From NCBI GenBank assembly GCA_025786725.1, contig JAHLTZ010000010.1:620001-684000 (forward strand): a stretch of DNA of 64,000 nucleotides. Direction: 5' to 3'. The DNA comes from Syncephalis fuscata (Eukaryota; Zoopagomycota; Zoopagomycetes; Zoopagales; Piptocephalidaceae). The notes under the pieces were generated by a model. The model saw nothing but the letters and a program-made list of their open reading frames with translations, made no database searches and was not told the origin of the DNA. The position numbers and the translations under genes are program-made. This document shows, piece after piece, positions 9,113 to 46,785 of the stretch (the stretch's first letter is position 1; every line of letters starts with the position of its first letter).

Positions 9113-9601
9113 TTATTTAGGGCACTCAACAGTGGTGGGCTTGGTGTTTGGCCTATAGGCCAAAGTCTGAGTCCACCATGGACCGTTGGCCGAATCGTTG
9201 CGAGCAAGACCAACATGAGTGTAGTTGCCGTTAAAGATATCCTTAGTACGTGAATCGGCTGACAATATCTTGGCATATGTATCTTCATCCTTGTAGCCAC
9301 GAGCAACTAGTTGGGCCCATGCCCACCACTTGTCCGTACCGGTGGCCTCCTTAATGCGATCAATCAAATCAGTTTCGTCATCAAATTGGTAGGCCAACTC
9401 TTGACGTTGAGCCTGAATGTCGTTATGGACTTGAGCCACACTGTCCAATCCCTTGAAGGTGGTGAGGTATGGCTTGCCATTTTGTTTGCGGTATTTGTTA
9501 ATAGCGCAGAGAAGCTTCTTCGTATCGTAAGCGGCCTCGGCGTTAGGCACGATGGCAGCAATGCTGGCCAAGAGAACAATAGAGATGGTTGCGAAGCGCA
9601 T
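9113..9601 (-). CDS. Secreted CAP-domain (SCP/PR-1-like) protein 1
   Basis: Intronless 162-residue protein. MRFATISIVLLASIAAIVPN followed by AEA is a clear signal peptide. The CAP domain follows: LLCAINKYRKQNGKPYL (helix 1), LDSVAQVHNDIQAQ (first His), and the C-terminal NYTHVGLARND with GPWWTQTLAY. The usual GAENIA segment is replaced by WWAWAQLVARG, so the conserved Glu of the CAP cavity seems to be missing. CAP proteins are extracellular and in fungi bind sterols or lipids or act at host interfaces. A TATAAAAG element lies on the minus strand at 9748-9755, about 150 bp upstream of the ATG. One of five CAP genes in the window. Confidence 0.88.
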   Translation of the reverse strand: MRFATISIVLLASIAAIVPNAEAAYDTKKLLCAINKYRKQNGKPYLTTFKGLDSVAQVHNDIQAQRQELAYQFDDETDLIDRIKEATGTDKWWAWAQLVARGYKDEDTYAKILSADSRTKDIFNGNYTHVGLARNDSANGPWWTQTLAYRPNTKPTTVECPK

Positions 9602-33393: not shown

Positions 33394-35258
33394 CTAGACG
33401 ACAGTTGTCAAAAGGTCTTGATTTTTGTCGGATGTATACCTAAAATATATAGGATTGATAGTCCAGTTATACTATCAATGTCAATGCCTTGGTGTCAATT
33501 AGTTTTTTCTTGTGAATGTATACAGTACATGTCATATAATTAGCTTATAAAGTGGTAATATGCAATGCTACCTACTTGCTGTTAACATAAGTTAGATACA
33601 TGGTGCATTATGTATATTTAGTGCATAGATAATTAGTATACAATGTTACATACTTCCTATTGGTAAAAGTTATTAAACAAAAAGCATGGAACATGTTTTA
33701 GAACATAAATAGTTATTATACAATGCCACTTACTTGCTGTTAACATAAGTTGTAAAACATGCGCAATGTATGGCATATAGTTAATGAATAGTTGATTAGT
33801 ATACAATGTCACCCACTTTCTATTAACATAAGTTATTAAACACACAGTGCATGATATATGTTTAGTGCATAGCTGATTGGTATAAAGTGCCACTTACAAC
33901 CTATTAACAAAAATTATCAAATAAAAAACATACATTTTTTAGAACATAAATAATTGCTGTAAAATGCCACTTACCAACTATCAATACAAATTATAAAATA
34001 CACACAACGCATAGTATATAGTTAATGCATAGTTGATTAGTATAAAATGTCACTTACTAGCTATTAAATTATAAACACAAAATATACGGGGCATGTTTAG
34101 TGTATGACTAGTTGACGTTTAATGCTAATTACCAGTTGGTAACGGGATCTGTTAACCACACAGTGTATGGTATATGTTTAGTGTATAGCTGGTTGATATA
34201 CAATACCACTTACCACCTATTAGCAAAGTTATTAAACACACAATGCATAAAGCATGTTTAGTGTATAACTGGTTACCATGTAGTGCCACTTACGAACTAT
34301 TGACACGGGTCAGTAAATAAATATGCACGACATATTTTAGTATATGATTGCTTGACAAATATGCCACTTACGCTCTATTAACATATATTATTAGACATAC
34401 AGAGAATGTCATATGTTTAGTACGTGATTGGTCAATACAAAAGTCGCTTACTATCTATTGGTACAGTTATTGAATAAGCAGTGCATAAAGTACTTTAAAT
34501 CCATAGTTAACTAGTATAAAATTTTACTTACTAACTATTAATGCATGTTATTAAGCACACACAGTGTATGGTATATGTTTAGCGTATAGCTGATTGGTAT
34601 ACAGTACCACTTACTATCTATTAATACAAGATATTAAATTAATAGTGCATGGAACAATTAGTACATAGTTGTTTAGTATACAAAGCCACTTACTATCTGG
34701 CAAAACAAATTATTAAACACGCAGTGTATGCTGTATGTTTAGTATGTAAATGGTTGGTATAAAATACCACTTACTTTCTATCAATACAATGTTAAACAGA
34801 TAATACACAATATATGTTTAATGCATAGTTAGTCAATATAAATTTCACCTACGAACTATAAAATATAGCATTAAGCAAGCAGTGCATGACGTATAATTAG
34901 TGCATAATTCAATGCTATAAAATGCCACTTACGTTCTATTGGCACAAGATATTAAATAAATAGTGAATAAAATATGTTTAGTGCACAGTTGATAAATATG
35001 CTATACCACTTACGTTCTATCAGTACAAATCATTAAACATACAACAAATGACATATATTTAGTCCATGATTGCTTAATATACAATAGCACTTACGGACTA
35101 TTAACACAAAATGTTAAACAGGCAGCGAGTAAAATGTGCTTAGCATATATTTGCTTAATGAATAATGACACTTACATTCTATTAGTATAATTCATTACAT
35201 ATACAGCGAATAAAACATATTTAGCGTATAAATGATTAATGTACAATCCAACTTACCT
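33394..35258 (-). other. Microexon block 4: exons 67-89 and 3' end
   Basis: 35257 AG (2 nt; probably AGG with a lost base); 35176 AAT; 35095 TCC; 35014 AAC; 34933 AAC; 34853 TTC; 34775 AAA; 34694 ATA; 34615 ATA; 34532 TTA; 34452 ATA; 34372 AGC; 34294 TTC; 34214 GTG; about 34132 a 16-nt exon; 34058 CTA; 33975 TTG; 33898 GTT; 33817 AAA; 33734 CAA; 33654 GAA; 33576 CAA; terminal exon from 33439 (or 33472). With exon 67 as AGG the reading is KEFQQLQNNINKLR. With the 16-nt exon it continues DPVTNCYWLNKN and, from 33439, KYTSDKNQDLLTTVV, stop at 33394-33396. If the 16-nt exon is skipped or 3 nt, phase 1 hits TAA across the 33898/33817 junction. Confidence 0.65.
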
Positions 35259-38200
35259 CTATTAACACAGATGATTAAAACACAGCGCATGGAATGGTTA
35301 GTACATAGCCGATTAGTATGTAATGTCACTTACTTCCTATTAACATAGATCATTGAGTATACAGTACATGGTATATGTTTAACGCGTGTTTGATTAATAT
35401 GCAATATCACTTACCATCTATTAGTTTAGATGATTAAACACGGTATGCGGTATATGTTTAGATCATAACTGGTTGATATAAATATTACTTACCTTCTATT
35501 AATACACATTATTAAACACAAGAAACGCATAATATATTTTAGCGCATAAATAATTACTATACAAGGCCACTTACGTTCTATTAACATAAATTGGCAGATA
35601 TAAAGTGCATATGTTTAATGCATATCCGATTAGTATAATGTCACTTACGATCTATCAATAGGAGTTATTAAATATACAATAAATTAGATATATTTAGTGT
35701 ATAGCTAATTGGTATACTATGTCACTTACGAACTATTATCACAAATTATAGCACACAATGCACATGATATATGTTTAGCATATGGTCAAATAATATACAA
35801 TACTACTTACGTTCTATTAATACAAATTATCAAACACACAAGGTGTACAATATATGTTTAGTGCGTAACTGGCTGATATACAATGTTACTTACGTCCTAT
35901 TAATACAAGTTATTAAATGCATGGTACATGAAATACATTTGATGTATATCAACCAGATATACAATACAACTTACCATCTATTGGCGCATGTTATTAGATA
36001 CACAGTATATATTATATATTTAGCGCGTATTTAATTGTTATACAATGTCACTCACATTCTATTACCGCAAAATAGTAAGCAAATGAAGTATAGCATGTGT
36101 TTAGTGCATGATTACTCAATAAATATGACACTTACGCTCTATTAACGTAAATCGTTAGGTATACGGAAAATAGCATATGCTTTAGTGTATAAATACTTAA
36201 TATACAATTTCACTTACTAACTATTGACGCATTATTAAGCACAAATGCATAGTATATGTTTAGTATATAGCTGGTTGATATACAATACTACTTACTATCT
36301 ATTAGTTTAGGTAATTAAATACAGTGCGTGGTACATGTTTAGAGCACAGCTGCCTAATATATAATGCTACTTACACTCTATTAATAAAGGTTAGTAAACA
36401 TATGATGTTCATTGTATATTTAGTGTATAATTGGTTGATATAAAATGCTACTTACCATCTATCAATACAATTTATTAAACACACAGTGCATGGCATAGTG
36501 TTAGTGAATAGTTGTTTGGTATAAAATGGCACTTACTAACTACCAAGTTATTAAATACAATACATTATATATGTTTAGTGCATAGTTGATTGATATTCAA
36601 TCTTACTTACGGACTACCAACAAAAATGATTACAGATGCAGTTTGTAGTAACATTTAGTACATAGTTGTCTGATATGCAATGCTACTTACATTCTATTAA
36701 CGTAAATTATTGGACATACAACAGATGACATATATTTAGTATATAACTGACTAATATGCAATAATACTTACTATCTATTAGCACATGTTATTAAACATAC
36801 AGTGCATGGCATATGTTTAGTATATAGTTGCTTGATATGAAATATTACTTACTAACTATTAATACAAGCCATTAAACACAAAATGTATGATACATGTTTA
36901 GAGCATAGCTGGTTGATATATGATGCTACTTACGCTCTATTAACACAGGTTAATAAACATATAGTATATGAAATATGCTTAATGTATAGTTGATTAATAT
37001 ATAATGCTACTTACTAACTATTAATAAGTTATTAAGTACACGGTGCATGATATATTGTTAGTTAATAACTAATTGATATTCAATCTTGCTTACCAACTAT
37101 TAACGAAACAGCATTAAACACACAGTGCATGGCATATTGTTAATAAATAGCTGCTTGATATAAAATGGCACTTACGAACTATTTACACAAGTTATTAAGC
37201 ACGCAATGCATGGTGTGCGTTTAGTGCATGGTTGCTTAATAAGTATATCACTTACGCTCTATTAACATACATTATTAAACATACAAAAAAACAACATATA
37301 TTTAGTATATAGATAATTTATATACAATAACACTTACCATCTATTGACGCGTTATTAACCACACAGTGTATGGTATATGTTTAGTGTATAGCTGGTTGAT
37401 ATACAATACCACTTACCATCTATTAGCGAAGTTATTAAATACACAATGCATAAAGCATGTTTAGTGTATAACTGGTTACCATGTAGTGCCACTTACGAAC
37501 TATTGACACGGGTCAGTAAATAAATGATGCACGACATATTTTAGTATATGATTGCTTGACAAATATGCCACTTACGCTCTAGTAACATATATTATTAGAC
37601 ATACAAGAATGTCATATGTTTAGTACGTGATTGGTCAATACAAAAGTCACTTACTATCTATTGGTACAGTTATTGAATAAGCAGTGCATAAAGTACTTTA
37701 AATCCATAGTTGACTAGTATAAAATTTTACTTACCAGCTATTAAAACATGTTATTAGACATAAAGTGTGTGGTACATAATTAGTAAATATTTAATTGATA
37801 TATAATACCACCTACCCTCTATTAAATTACATAATTAAACACAGTACGTGGTATAGGTTTAGAGCACAGCTGACCGATATAAAATGTTACTTACGATCTA
37901 TTAGCATAGGTTTTTAAGCGCATAGTGTATGGTATATGTTTAATGTGTAGCTGGCTGATATGCAATACAACTCACCATCTATTAACACAATCATTAAACA
38001 AACAGCACATGAAATATCATCAATAAATGGTTAATTGATATAAAATGACACTTACAAACTATTTACACAAGTTATTAAGCAAAAAATGTACGGCGTGTGT
38101 TTAGTGCGCGATTTCTTAATAAATATAACGCTTACGCTCTATTATTGTAGGCCGTTAGACATACAGAGAACGTTATATGCTTAGTACATGATTGATTAAT

Positions 38201-40649
38201 ATGCAATAACACTTACTTTCTATTAACATGAGTATTAAATGCACAGTGCACGGTATATGTTTAGTTTATAGTTGATTGCTATACAATGTCACTTACGGAC
38301 TATTAATACAAATATTAAATTAATAGTGCATGAAATAATTAGTACATAGCTGGTTAGTATACAAAGCCACTTACTATCTATTAACACGAATTATTAAGCA
38401 CAAAATACACAACATATATTTAATGCATATTTGATTGATACATCATAACACTTACCCTCTGTCAGCATAAATATTAAACAAATAACAAATTGCATATAAT
38501 TAATACGTAGCCGGTTAATGTACAATGTTGCTTACCAGCTGTCAGCACAGATTATTATATGCATAATGTATAGTATATGTTTAAAGCATAGCCAGCTGAT
38601 ATTAATTCCACTTACAACCTATTAATGTAAATTGTCGGACGTAAAGTGTATATTATATGTTTAATGTATATCTAATTAATATATAATATTACTTACAAGC
38701 TATTAACACAAATCATTAAACGCAAAACAAGATATGTGTGTTTAGTGCATGGCTATTTGGCATACGATGCCACTTACAAGCTATTAATAGAAATAATTAG
38801 ACACATAGTGAATATCATATGTTTAGTAAATAGTTGGCAAATATACAATGTTACTTACGTCCTATTAATGCAGATTGTTAAGTAGATAGTATATAAAATG
38901 TGTTTAGCGTATATCGGGTTCATATGTAATTTCACTTACGGACTATTAAAACAAAAAAGGCATTAAACAGCGCATAATATATGTTTAAAGTATGCTTGGC
39001 TAATATAAAACGTAACTTACAGCCTATTAAAACGCATCATTAGCCGCGCGATGTGGCATGTCTTTAGTGTATAGCTGATTATTATAAAGTGCCACTTACT
39101 ATCTATTAATACAAGGTTTAAGACACAACAAATGAACATGTTTAATACATAGTCAATTGATATACAATATCACGTACCAACTATTATTACAAATTAGAAA
39201 CACACAGAACATGGTATATGCTTAGTACATAGTTGATTAACATGCAATGACACTTACTTTCTATTAATGCATGTCATTAAACACACAAAGTACACGATAT
39301 ATGTTTAGCGTATAGCTGGTTGATGTACAATATCACTTGCCCTCTATTGGCGCATGTTATTAGATACGCAGCGCATGGTACATAATTAGCGTATGGCCGA
39401 TTGCTATAAAATTCTACTTACGTTCTATTAGCACAGATTATTACGAACAATGCATGGCATATATTTAGATTATAGCTGATTAATATATAATGTCTCTTAC
39501 GAACTATTAATAAATTATTAGACACATAATACATGACACGTGTTTAGAATGTAGTTGTTTGATATAAAATGCCACTTACGTTCTATCAGCGCAGATTGTT
39601 AAACATACAACAAATAAAATATTTCTAGTGGCCAAATGGTCCATATACAATATTACTTACGAGCTATCAATACAAATTATTAAAAACACAATACATGACA
39701 TGGTTAGTACACAGTCGATTGATATGTAATGTCACTTACTAGCTATTAACAGAAATAATTAAACACATGGCACATGGCATGTTTTAGTGCATAGTTAATT
39801 AATATGTAGTTGCACATACCAACTATTGGTAAATTAGTGGACACATAGTATATATTATATGTTTAGAGAGTATTTGACTGCTATACAATGCCACTCACAG
39901 CCTATTAACGCAAATTATTCAATGCCCAATTTATAGTATATGTTAACACACAGTTTCTTAATATATAATCCAACTTACTCTCTATTAACACAAGGTATTA
40001 GACACATGATACATGGCATATTTTTAGCTTATAATTGATTAGTATACAATACCACTTACGGACTATTAGCACAAGATATTAGGCGAACAGTAAATAAAAT
40101 ACGTTTAATGCACAGTCGATTAATATGCCATCCAACTTACGCTCTATTAACACAAGTTATTAAACACATAGTGTGTGGCATATGTTTAGCGTATAACTAA
40201 ATGATATAAAATGCCACTTACTCTCTATTGGCACATGATATTAAATAGTGAATAAAATACGTTTAGTGCACAGTTGGCCAATATACGATCCAACTTACGC
40301 TCTATTAATGTAGATTTAGTATATTAGTATTTTTAATATTCAATTTTTCATCTTATGTCAAATTTACCTTGCTCTGGAGTTCCTAATTTAATTCAATTAA
40401 CAAAAATATTTATCGTTTTTATTATGTGCATGGAAAGGTACAGTAAGTGCTAGAACGATGATTCTTAAACATAACTTACCGACTGGTATCATCATTAATT
40501 ATTCATAATATTAGTAAGTACACTAATCTAAATATTTATTATAATTGCAACATACCACGGCGGACTAGAGCTGGCATAGCATCAACCATGGCCACATTGG
40601 CTACAAAAGCCACAACGAGGGTACAGGCGACAGCAATAGAAAGCTTCAT
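33394..40649 (-). CDS. Single-codon microexon gene: secreted coiled-coil-like protein
   Basis: Exon 1 (40556-40649) encodes MKLSIAVACTLVVAFVANVA then MVDAMPALVRR, a signal peptide, and ends in phase 1 at a GTATGT donor. Exon 2 is TCG, exon 3 is 15 nt (40368-40382). From 40301 down to 33576 come exons of exactly 3 nt every 74-83 bp. Each is flanked by an acceptor ending AG (usually TTAATAG) and a donor GTAAGT or variant (GTGAGT, GTATGT, GTAGGT, one GCAAGT). I count 84 three-nt exons, one 2-nt unit (35257-35258) and one 16-nt exon (about 34132-34147). All introns are phase 1, so each triplet supplies codon positions 2-3 and position 1 of the next codon. The joined reading has no stop and gives an amphipathic Gln/Lys/Leu protein of about 140 residues. 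Terminal exon ends TAG at 33394 on the favoured model; the C-terminal frame is uncertain. Function unknown. Confidence 0.82.
34152..34540 (-). repeat. Recent segmental duplicate inside the array (copy A)
   Basis: About 380 bp matching copy B at 37355-37743 with roughly nine differences, far more similar than neighbouring units. It spans exons 76-80 (TTA, ATA, AGC, TTC, GTG), decoding to INKLR, against ADKLH in copy B. Confidence 0.85.
35334..37017 (-). other. Microexon block 3: exons 45-66
   Basis: 37015 TTA; 36934 AGC; 36853 TTA; 36772 ATA; 36691 AAT; 36611 TCC; 36537 TTA; 36456 ATG; 36375 AGT; 36296 ATA; 36218 TTA; 36136 AGC; 36056 AAT; 35975 ATG; 35894 GAC; 35811 AAC; 35730 TTC; 35649 ATC; 35575 AAC; 35493 AAG; 35415 ATG; 35334 GAA. 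Phase-1 reading: VKLNKFLNEYI (45-55), KQYGQLHQQDG (56-66). Phase 0 would instead give a hydrophobic, low-complexity string (LSLINSLMSILS), unlike a soluble secreted protein, which supports phase 1. Donors are GTAAGT apart from GTGAGT at exon 57. Confidence 0.8.
37094..38861 (-). other. Microexon block 2: exons 22-44
   Basis: 38859 GAC; 38778 CTT; 38697 CTT; 38616 GTT; 38536 CTG; 38456 AGG; 38375 ATA; 38297 TCC; 38217 AAA; 38136 AGC; 38056 TTT; 37976 ATG; 37894 ATC; 37816 AGG; 37735 CTG; 37655 ATA; 37576 AGC; 37497 TTC; 37417 ATG; 37338 ATG; 37256 AGC; 37176 TTC; 37094 TTG. Phase-1 reading: RPSCSEDIQK (exons 22-31), LYDQADKLHDELL (32-44). The AGC-TTY-ATG exon trio, decoding to Lys-Leu plus an aromatic or His, recurs seven exons apart (31-33 and 38-40), which is a heptad of a coiled coil written in exons. 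A lone Cys sits at the turn-like RPSCSED. Confidence 0.8.
37355..37743 (-). repeat. Recent segmental duplicate inside the array (copy B)
   Basis: Partner of 34152-34540, forty units away. It spans exons 36-40 (CTG, ATA, AGC, TTC, ATG). The first bases of the adjacent exon (ATG at 37338, AT of the 16-nt exon in copy A) also agree and would both encode Asp. Confidence 0.85.
38940..40649 (-). other. Microexon block 1: exons 1-21
   Basis: Lowest coordinate and sense triplet of each exon after exon 1 (40556-40649): 40480 TCG; 40368 a 15-nt exon (GAACTCCAGAGCAAG); 40299 AGC; 40222 AGA; 40141 AGC; 40060 TCC; 39979 AGA; 39899 GCT; 39820 TTG; 39740 CTA; 39661 CTC; 39580 AAC; 39501 TTC; 39422 AAC; 39341 AGG (followed by a GC donor); 39258 AAA; 39178 TTG; 39100 ATA; 39021 GCT; 38940 TCC. 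With the G left over from exon 1, exons 2-3 give VGTPEQ, exons 4-13 give EQKLQSFATQ, and exons 14-21 give LQQEIDSF. The spacing change from 77-81 bp to longer introns at exons 2-4 marks the array edge. Confidence 0.8.
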
Positions 40650-41828: not shown

Positions 41829-42763
41829 TTAGTCATATTGCATTTCAGTGCGGCCAGACCTGCCACCATTTTTGTTGCTATTGCCATTCATTCTTGTTTG
41901 GCCCTGTTGTCTGCCGTTGCTGCGACCGCCGCCTCTCTGACGACCACCGTTGTCACCGCTGGATGAATCGCCATTTGATTGGCTATCATCATCATAGCCA
42001 CCGCCACTATCGCTACTGCCACGAGAGCCACGACCCATAGTGTTTCCAGATTTGCCGGTTGATTTTCTTCTACCATTATATTTGCCACCAGTACCAGTTG
42101 ATTGTTCTGAACCACCTCCCGAGGACATTTCGCCGCTACCTGAGCCACCATCTTCATTGCCATTATATTTATTGCCTCGCTTGCCAGCGCCACCTTTTCT
42201 ACCGGAACCTCTTTCATTGGATGTGTGGGTATCTTCACCTGAAGAGCCATCATACGAGGTATCATCGCCTGAAGAGCCGCTGTAAGAGCCACCTGAACAA
42301 TTTGGCGTAGAGCCACCCTTAAGTCCTTTGCCAAAGTTCTGAGTCCAATAGGGAGAATTGCCAGCTGTGACCATGGCAGCACCAAAATGCGTATAATCGC
42401 CCATAAGATTCTTGTAATGGCCTGGCGATTTAAGCCAACTAGTCATAACAGCTTCTTCGGAGCGCTGGCCCATGGCAATGTTTTCGGCTGACCCGCTTAC
42501 TCGCTCGCCGTAACAGGCAGATCGAATACGAGATCCCATTTCCGGCTCTCCCGAAAGACTATGCGACATTTGGCGACGCCGGGCCATCTCCTGGCTATGT
42601 CCTTCGGAGGATTTGACTAGACATGGCGATAGTGCTAATGGCTTTCGTCCATTCTTAGCACGTGCTGATTAACCAAACACAGCATTTTGTTAATGTCCAT
42701 CGCTGCTTTAACGTCAGCAACAAGAATAGCGACAGCTAAAGCGCCAATAATAAAAGCCTTCAT
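41829..42763 (-). CDS. Secreted CAP-domain protein 3 with Ser/Gly-rich tail
   Basis: MKAFIIGALAVAILVADVKA is a signal peptide (ATG at 42763). MDINKMLCLVNQH is followed by a one-base break at about 42661, after which RAKNGRKPLALSPCLVKSSE continues; an extra C restores the classical LVNQHRAKNGRKPL. The CAP core is complete: GHSQEMA, GSAENIAMGQRSEEAVMTSW, LKSPGHYKNLMGDYTHFGAA and SPYWTQNFGKG, with the cavity His and Glu residues present. A long tail (about 42290-41829) is Ser/Gly/Asn/Arg-rich and probably disordered or wall-associated. It lies head-to-tail behind the microexon gene promoter and shares its orientation. Confidence 0.85.
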
Positions 42764-46305: not shown

Positions 46306-46785
46306 ATGAAATTTCCTGCCATTCTTGCCATCTCATCGTTGCTGCTGGCCATCAACATTGAGCAAACTCATGCTGCCATCGATCTTAATAAGCTTGTCTG
46401 CCTAGTCAATCAATTCCGAGCGAAAAATAACATGCCTGCGCTTTCCATGGACGATAGCCTAAATCGTGCCGCGCAAAAACACAGCGATTTACAAGCTAAA
46501 AGCAACAAGATGGAGCATCGCCTTCCCGGAGAAGGTGGCCTACTTGAACGATTCCGTCAACAAGGCGGTAGCTGGTCGTCTGGTGCCGAAAACATTGCTT
46601 TTGGTTATCAAACCGAAGACGCAGTTATGAATGGTTGGATCAAATCGCCTGGACATCGAGCCAATCTACTCGGTAGACATACACACATCGGCCATGGCAT
46701 GACGACGGGCAATAAAAACACCAAATACTGGACCCAAGACTTTGCCACGGATACCCGTCGTAAACCAAATCCCCCCAAATGCTAA
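46306..46785 (+). CDS. Secreted CAP-domain protein 4 (canonical)
   Basis: A 159-residue intronless protein and the most canonical CAP member here. MKFPAILAISSLLLAINIEQ plus THA is the signal peptide. LVCLVNQFRAKNNMPALSMD, LNRAAQKHSDLQAKSNKMEH, SWSSGAENIAFGYQTEDAVM, NGWIKSPGHRANLLGRHTHI and KYWTQDFATD carry the complete set of CAP motifs, with the His/Glu/His cavity residues. A short basic tail (RRKPNPPKC) ends the protein. The full motif set suggests a functional lipid/sterol-binding fold; target and role are unknown. Confidence 0.93.
   Translation: MKFPAILAISSLLLAINIEQTHAAIDLNKLVCLVNQFRAKNNMPALSMDDSLNRAAQKHSDLQAKSNKMEHRLPGEGGLLERFRQQGGSWSSGAENIAFGYQTEDAVMNGWIKSPGHRANLLGRHTHIGHGMTTGNKNTKYWTQDFATDTRRKPNPPKC

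Follow-up and report, generated by a model that had tools for sequence, protein, structure and literature searches.

The minus strand of a 64,000-nucleotide stretch of Syncephalis fuscata DNA (GenBank assembly GCA_025786725.1, contig JAHLTZ010000010.1, positions 620,001 to 684,000, and referred to here as the window) carries a gene in which an exon reading as a signal peptide is followed by 84 exons of exactly three nucleotides (nt) each, and this gene belongs to a family found throughout the genome. We computed the splice signals, reading phase and coding content of these triplets, as well as the extent of the family, the whole-unit indels and an intronless counterpart, and consider it very probable that the arrays are real coding genes of a secreted-peptide family in which the triplets are spliced together in phase 1 (i.e. 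with each codon formed by the last base of one exon and the first two bases of the next). The preliminary description of the window, which had been made from the sequence alone, reported one such gene; the gene is present as described, but the scope was too narrow, since the acceptor–NNN–donor signature that marks these units has 2,716 matches in the genome and the finding is confirmed as one of a genome-wide family.

A Viterbi parse starting at the exon-1 donor and permitting exon lengths of 1–60 nt placed 87 introns and 86 internal exons behind exon 1, with 84 of these exons exactly 3 nt long, which confirms the number first proposed (it should be noted that the weight matrices for the intron side were trained on 449 units chosen by a YAG–NNN–GT rule, and the parse is not wholly independent). 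The step between units lies within the predicted range of 74–83 bp in 82 of 85 cases, 69 of the 87 introns start with the expected GTAAGT, and exon 1 both reads as a signal peptide and closes in phase 1, leaving one base of the next codon, as had been stated. In all, 80 of the 87 introns end in TAG, and TTAATAG is the most frequent acceptor (41/87). One earlier claim needed correction. The three-base exons were said to follow each other unbroken for more than 80 repeats, and although there are 84 of them, the series is interrupted by one 2-nt unit and by another which has no TAG acceptor and is given 16 nt in the parse. The array can also be recognised with no parse at all, as the window contains 58 copies of AATAGNNNGTAAG, all of them inside the array, where shuffles would lead one to expect 0.20, and Tandem Repeats Finder (TRF) reports a period of 81 bp with 81.5 copies and a 63% match. 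When the 3-nt exons alone are read in phase 1, 80 open codons precede a TAA, so that the claim of no stop over more than 80 junctions was about right, and the AAA which completes this predicted stop is the fourth-last triplet of the gene. The final parsed intron (33575–33472) is uncertain and, by eye, the window gene has no YAG acceptor at the site found in its paralogs, so the start of the terminal exon is also uncertain. At the other end of the array, the unusually long second intron could hide a frame-neutral degenerate 15-nt exon (40382–40368), or a 6-nt exon within this and ending at 40368, as judged by eye.

The family was characterised by scanning the S. fuscata assembly (28.95 Mb in 299 contigs; order Zoopagales), where the 2,716 matches to the signature TAATAGNNNGTAAGT compare with 5 for a reversed control, and a terminal-acceptor motif with up to two mismatches gave 88 matches against 4 in the control. 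The strict signature recovered 510 of the 836 units across 32 array loci, and extrapolation from this recovery suggests that there are about 4,400 units genome-wide. The exon-1 peptide was found in at least 150 scored places, window gene included (311 candidates), though some matching contigs may be allelic. Among the first 20 loci by rank the array lies directly behind exon 1 in 13; of the seven in which it does not, L014 keeps the exon-1 donor; 16 further loci were chosen for a short open frame or close paralogy, and only loci of this family were examined. The strict chains of a fetched locus total between 6 and 84 units, and outside the window gene most array exons are 3 nt and a few 6 nt. 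No domain above the cut-off was found in Pfam for five family peptides. We note that like copies occur on different contigs (C57:350597 and C35:21319, and C157:304977 and C168:183756), as seen from an identical peptide in one comparison and identical triplets in another, which may reflect allelism of the contigs or recent duplication.

The order of the triplets is constrained in phase 1. In 23 loci (39 linked chains, 614 triplets) there are 3 phase-1 junction stops, compared to 31.3 ± 4.2 when triplets were shuffled within chains (5,000 shuffles, with a minimum of 18 stops), and in eight loci fetched later there are none against 9.1 ± 2.2 expected, with the pooled set of 29 loci and 735 triplets having 3 against 37.2 ± 4.4 (minimum of 23 in 3,000 shuffles). 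The three stops are completed by the last unit in L019, the second-last in L031 and, as above, the fourth-last in the window gene. In contrast, the frame b2b3|b1 shows no avoidance of stops, with 62 against 59.7 in the 23 loci and 74 against 71.0 in the 29 loci. A satellite without coding function, or a set of dead genes, that merely retains splice-like motifs could account for the tandem 81-bp period, the likeness of introns from different loci and the two off-size units of the window gene, but it would not be expected to avoid stops in phase 1 and not in b2b3|b1, to conserve its splice sites or to have an intronless counterpart (see below), and we regard this explanation as extremely improbable.

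The terminal exon and the cysteines point to the same phase. A phase-1 stop follows within 0–7 codons of the terminal exon (median 1) in 19 of 19 scored arrays, while the medians for the other phases are 32 and 22 codons (the 19 arrays are from a set of 24, with the window gene, L011, L035, L033 and L008 omitted, and the array scored for L027 is the neighbouring one). The 26 chains used for the cysteine test decode to 79 cysteines compared to 40.7 in shuffles, and to 25 C-x3-C spacings compared to 2.6, neither value being reached by any of 3,000 shuffles, as well as to 7 C-x2-C spacings compared to 2.9 (reached by 68 of 3,000). These counts are not independent as they come from related paralogs, and the omission of loci with few or no cysteines (the window gene, L008, L011, L012, L018, L019, L020, L034 and L036) raises them, but the comparison with shuffles of the identical 26 chains stays fair. 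Phase 0, in which the triplets would themselves be whole codons, was rejected on the terminal-exon median of 32 codons to a stop and on its poor score against the intronless counterpart. The coding reading of the triplets in phase 1 made in the preliminary description is therefore supported, by stop avoidance, the frame of the terminal exon, cysteine spacing and the intronless paralog.

Near copies and parsing errors were handled as follows in these and later counts. L008 (a near copy of L015) was left out of the stop, terminal-exon, cysteine, intron-likeness and intron-statistics counts, L042 (which has the triplets of L041) was left out of the intron-likeness, intron-statistics and 29-locus counts, and L039 (a near copy of L028) was left out of the 29-locus stop total. 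The L021 chain in the stop and cysteine tests carries one spurious unit, and in L025, L039, L040 and L046 the automatic parse selected off-size exons and met early stops, although their strict-unit chains are stop-free.

An intronless family member at C79:327964 was the sole match in the genome for nine decoded peptides joined as one query (E = 0.0019; the L021 decode in this query had one spurious unit and two missed). When the right decode of L021 (49 triplets) was searched alone, C79:327964 was again the only match (E = 2.6e-8). The alignment between the two scores 133, compared to 12 for phase 0 and 13 for the remaining phase of the same triplets, and to maxima of 67 in 5,000 residue shuffles and 61 in 5,000 triplet-order shuffles. 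The two best-conserved stretches cover 23 codons with 8 synonymous differences and 1 nonsynonymous difference (2, 1 and 7 by codon position), and the peptide CTYSECMEKCKTYC, which spans about 15 successive units in L021 and is contiguous in the intronless gene, is identical in both, with four differences which are all synonymous and at the third codon position, which in phase 1 is the central base of the 3-nt exon. As the differences are mostly synonymous, we conclude that selection has read these triplets in phase 1.

The 5' flank of C79:327964 matches those of the array genes L021, L016 and L022 at 78–80% over about 190–200 bp, and it is therefore not a simple retrocopy which has landed elsewhere. 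We suggest that the intronless paralogs arose through recombination with spliced cDNA. The opposite history, with intronless genes being ancestral and one intron inserted per codon, would fit the seven of the first 20 loci with no array directly behind exon 1 (including L014 with its donor) as well as the 5' flank that the counterpart of L021 has in common with array genes. However, dozens of insertions would be needed, each at the same place in successive codons, and while unit duplication is directly seen, it cannot alone rebuild a pre-existing peptide codon by codon, and we think this order of events rather unlikely. Some intronless members also share the scaffold of the array peptides: when compared with 14 decoded cysteine-type peptides, the intronless L026 gave p ≤ 0.01 for five and the annotated protein P0201, which is contiguous in the genome, for two, with none for P0211 (p values are uncorrected, and the L027 decode, which fuses two neighbouring arrays, was scored as such). 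A supposed intron in the 3' untranslated region was dropped as a like stretch is present in the intronless paralog.

Comparison of close paralogs indicates that array length changes mostly by whole units. Three pairs have five internal gaps of more than 40 bp between them (79 bp in L028/L039, 82, 79 and 43 bp in L023/L040, and 397 bp in L012/L018, two short arrays of 8 and 13 units, respectively) and four of these are near whole-unit multiples; two further gaps in L023/L040 (321 and 94 bp) were discarded as a cut-end artefact that was gone when a longer alignment was used. In L030, ACC and CAA units alternate and read NPNP in phase 1, and some of the introns of this locus are 100% identical to each other. 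Between L028 and L039, 1 of 492 splice-hexamer sites is changed compared to 55 of 2,533 intron sites, and for L023/L040 the corresponding values are 0/228 and 60/1,234 when labelled from L040, or 13/315 and 159/1,767 when labelled from L023. In more distant pairs the triplets differ at 38–64% of sites and the introns at 11–26%, with unit correspondence in these being insecure. We also note that a number of array introns reach about 450–900 bp because they contain related inserts of two kinds, which are about 80–94% alike in long between-locus matches and are possibly mobile elements residing inside the arrays.

The introns themselves have near-uniform ends. The 759 introns of 50–95 nt between linked units (longer ones were not counted) have a length of 77.4 ± 3.7 nt, 736 end in TAG and 23 in CAG, and 643 start with GTAAGT and 12 with GCAAGT. 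A YTRAY motif is present in 738 of the 759, though this is frequent by chance in AT-rich sequence and no control was made, and the A of CTAAH is most often found 44 nt from the intron 3' end. Introns from different loci are alike: a shared-word filter retained 31,764 pairs of units from different loci, with an identity of 75–85% in 23,786 of them, and without this filter the mean intron identities are 0.67–0.70 with gaps counted. Two introns of an ordinary IleRS gene in the window are, by eye, of similar size and have similar ends. Regular short removable pieces are typical of DNA elimination and ribosome hopping, and removal of the 77-nt pieces without the spliceosome, e.g. in the manner of ciliate internal eliminated sequences (IES), can be imagined; nothing specific to these arrays favours it, the GT…AG ends, YTRAY motif and IleRS introns argue against it, and we give it practically no credence.

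We propose that exon 1 would supply a conserved signal peptide with a dibasic RR at its end, which we take to be a Kex2-like site, and as RR stands at the end of exon 1, the mature peptide may be the array-encoded part alone. Almost all of the remaining coding sequence would lie in tandem units of about 80 bp, each made up of an intron of about 77 nt and usually one 3-nt exon, with each intron removed and the triplets joined in phase 1. Splicing would rely on intron definition, and removal is probably stepwise, most likely from exon 1 in the 5' to 3' direction, because an acceptor and the donor that follows it are separated by just 3 nt and the two introns could scarcely be engaged simultaneously. 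Every join would then restore a long upstream exon, with a new donor lying 3 nt beyond the point of joining, and in this way a ratchet would advance one codon per step. Recombination between look-alike introns would allow the peptide to grow, shrink and diversify codon by codon, with the frame being kept on gain, loss or skipping of units because these give whole codons. We are inclined, if only slightly, to go further and see in this a protein-encoding intron satellite of recombining intron-plus-codon units through which the spliceosome ratchets codon-wise, which would be a categorically new architecture; the duplication, loss or skipping of a unit would here amount to a clean codon indel, and could generate diversity over evolutionary time as well as, through alternative splicing, in a single fungus. 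Syncephalis species live as parasites of other fungi, and from this lifestyle we would guess that the peptides act at the contact between fungus and host.

A number of observations weigh against these genes being read and spliced as proposed. The splicing out of the introns is a prediction from genomic DNA, and the window gene has its two off-size units. Outside the conserved stretches, L021 and its intronless counterpart have several residue differences and one indel, and a contiguous counterpart at E < 0.01 was found for only 1 of 19 decoded peptides, in a search of limited sensitivity. Phase 0 and phase 1 are separated neither by base composition by position (scores of −5.92 and −5.99, respectively, in favour of phase 0) nor by codon usage (−6.09 and −6.03), and base composition and codon usage were dropped as a test of phase, being uninformative. 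Whole-triplet TAA, TAG and TGA, which the reading phase would allow, are absent from the array loci when 9.3 would be expected from column permutation, perhaps because they would create extra splice signals or from another cause. The triplets of L028 and L039 differ as often as their introns (3/126), and with no excess in this closest pair we do not claim diversifying selection on the triplets. The annotated proteins P0206 and P0208 start with exon 1 of L044 and L033, respectively, and by eye continue differently from the arrays. Finally, the terminal-exon result would also be expected if whole arrays were skipped.

This last point bears on the possibility that the array is usually left out of the mRNA, whole or for the most part, with the triplets serving as a stock of codons that are used rarely or alternatively. 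However many units are passed over, phase 1 is kept and the stop reached is unchanged, off-size units do no harm when skipped, and P0206 and P0208 could be seen as proteins with exon 1 and no array-encoded part. Nevertheless, the order of the triplets carries a signal, both in the stops avoided and in the cysteine spacing, and the synonymous-only differences in CTYSECMEKCKTYC extend over successive units of L021 that are contiguous in the intronless gene; skipping on this scale seems to us quite improbable. Units of 2 nt occur in three loci, the window gene, L029 and L035 (GG and GC in the L029 and L035 parses), and when the one in L029 is bypassed the C-terminus resembles the L030 one (RINNP), a hint that 2-nt units may be skipped.

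The family would push the known limits of how finely genes can be split and yet be read. If the arrays are spliced as predicted, up to about 87 correct splice events would be needed per mRNA for some 80 codons, with exons too small for exon definition, and the family would offer a natural setting in which to study intron definition as well as the order and fidelity of splicing. It would also mean that proteins can change length by clean single-codon steps, and that standard gene models overlook such peptides, as P0206 and P0208, judged by eye, do not go on into the part encoded by the array.

A literature search, with most subscription papers and bioRxiv preprints outside its coverage, found no report of a gene of one-codon exons, and nothing on such genes in the available parts of the literature pairing S. 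fuscata with genome. A survey based on culture tests and public transcriptomes lists S. fuscata among virus hosts (PMC7482067), and a transcriptome of this species may exist. The micro-exon genes (MEGs) of Schistosoma encode secreted proteins and consist mostly of tiny exons, mainly multiples of three, with exons given as 3–81 bp in the abstract or 6–81 bp and mostly 15 bp in the text, and introns from 100 bp to nearly 5,000 bp long (PMC10526429). The arrays resemble these in their short exons, mostly in multiples of three, and their exon-1 peptide, shared by the many scored places, reads as a signal peptide; they differ in that almost all internal exons are 3 nt, in having introns of about 77 nt (below the MEG range) which are alike and in tandem, and in being from a fungus. 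The bicycle genes of aphids, an unrelated organism, likewise form a large and rapidly evolving family whose products are putative secreted effectors, and have numerous small internal exons, almost all of one phase, though in the passages compared the exons are unusually small but not said to be single codons and the introns are not called a tandem repeat (PMC9168663). In the ratchet points of Drosophila recursive splicing an acceptor adjoins a donor and the splice step regenerates the donor, with the sites juxtaposed in long introns and having a cryptic downstream exon (PMC8605326); unlike these 0-nt exons, there are 3 coding nt between AG and GT in 84 of the 86 internal exons of the window gene, with dozens of such sites in a row, and sequential steps are our suggestion. 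Exons of 1–3 nt can be spliced, as in Arabidopsis APC11 with a 1-nt exon (PMC4674806) and Drosophila hth with a 3-bp micro-exon (PMC7392893), but there is one per reported gene and no array. A functional microexon is also known from a fungus, Trichoderma virens, where the transcription factor Xlr2 has one such exon acting as a switch (PMC11121469). The array introns have GT…AG ends and a candidate branch-point motif as spliceosomal introns do; many look-alike introns are also a feature of fungal introner-like elements (PMC4457414), and tandem duplication is known to add introns (PMC4974935). In S. fuscata, in contrast to introner-like elements, the look-alike introns follow one another within a single coding region, separated by a codon.

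Table 1. Coordinates of the window array gene features and of stretched introns in other family loci.
Feature	Position	Strand	Remarks
Exon 1, coding part	40556..40649	-	Reads as a signal peptide followed by dibasic RR (MKLSIAVACTLVVAFVANVAMVDAMPALVRR); donor GTATGT
Array of 84 three-nucleotide exons	33576..40482	-	Intron median 77 nt, mostly GTAAGT...TAG
Second intron	40302..40479	-	178 nt, about twice the usual length; from parse
Duplicated segment of about 5 units, copy 1	37355..37756	-	403 aligned columns, 97% identical to copy 2
Duplicated segment of about 5 units, copy 2	34152..34553	-	Within same array
2-nt unit, 65th internal exon	35257..35258	-	From parse; inclusion would shift frame
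Unit having lost TAG acceptor	34133..34148	-	Nearest upstream AG gives 16-nt exon; skipping preserves phase 1
Predicted stop TAA	33818..33898	-	Junction of GTT (33900-33898) and AAA (33819-33817), 3-nt exons only
3' end	33394..33508	-	Similar among family members (AAGGCATTGACATTGATAG ... AGGTATACATCCG), by eye
Stretched introns	L015:945-1436; L017:369-1258, 1752-2251; L025:1972-2466; L033:375-1275, 1695-2144		Gene orientation

Elsewhere in the window there are three open reading frames (ORFs) with a CAP domain (PF00188), at 9113–9601 (minus strand), 41829–42587 (minus strand) and 46306–46785 (plus strand). Two of the CAP-domain ORFs adjoin the array gene, one has a Gly/Ser-rich tail, and a CAP-family protein of the window has a 54% match in S. 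plumigaleata.

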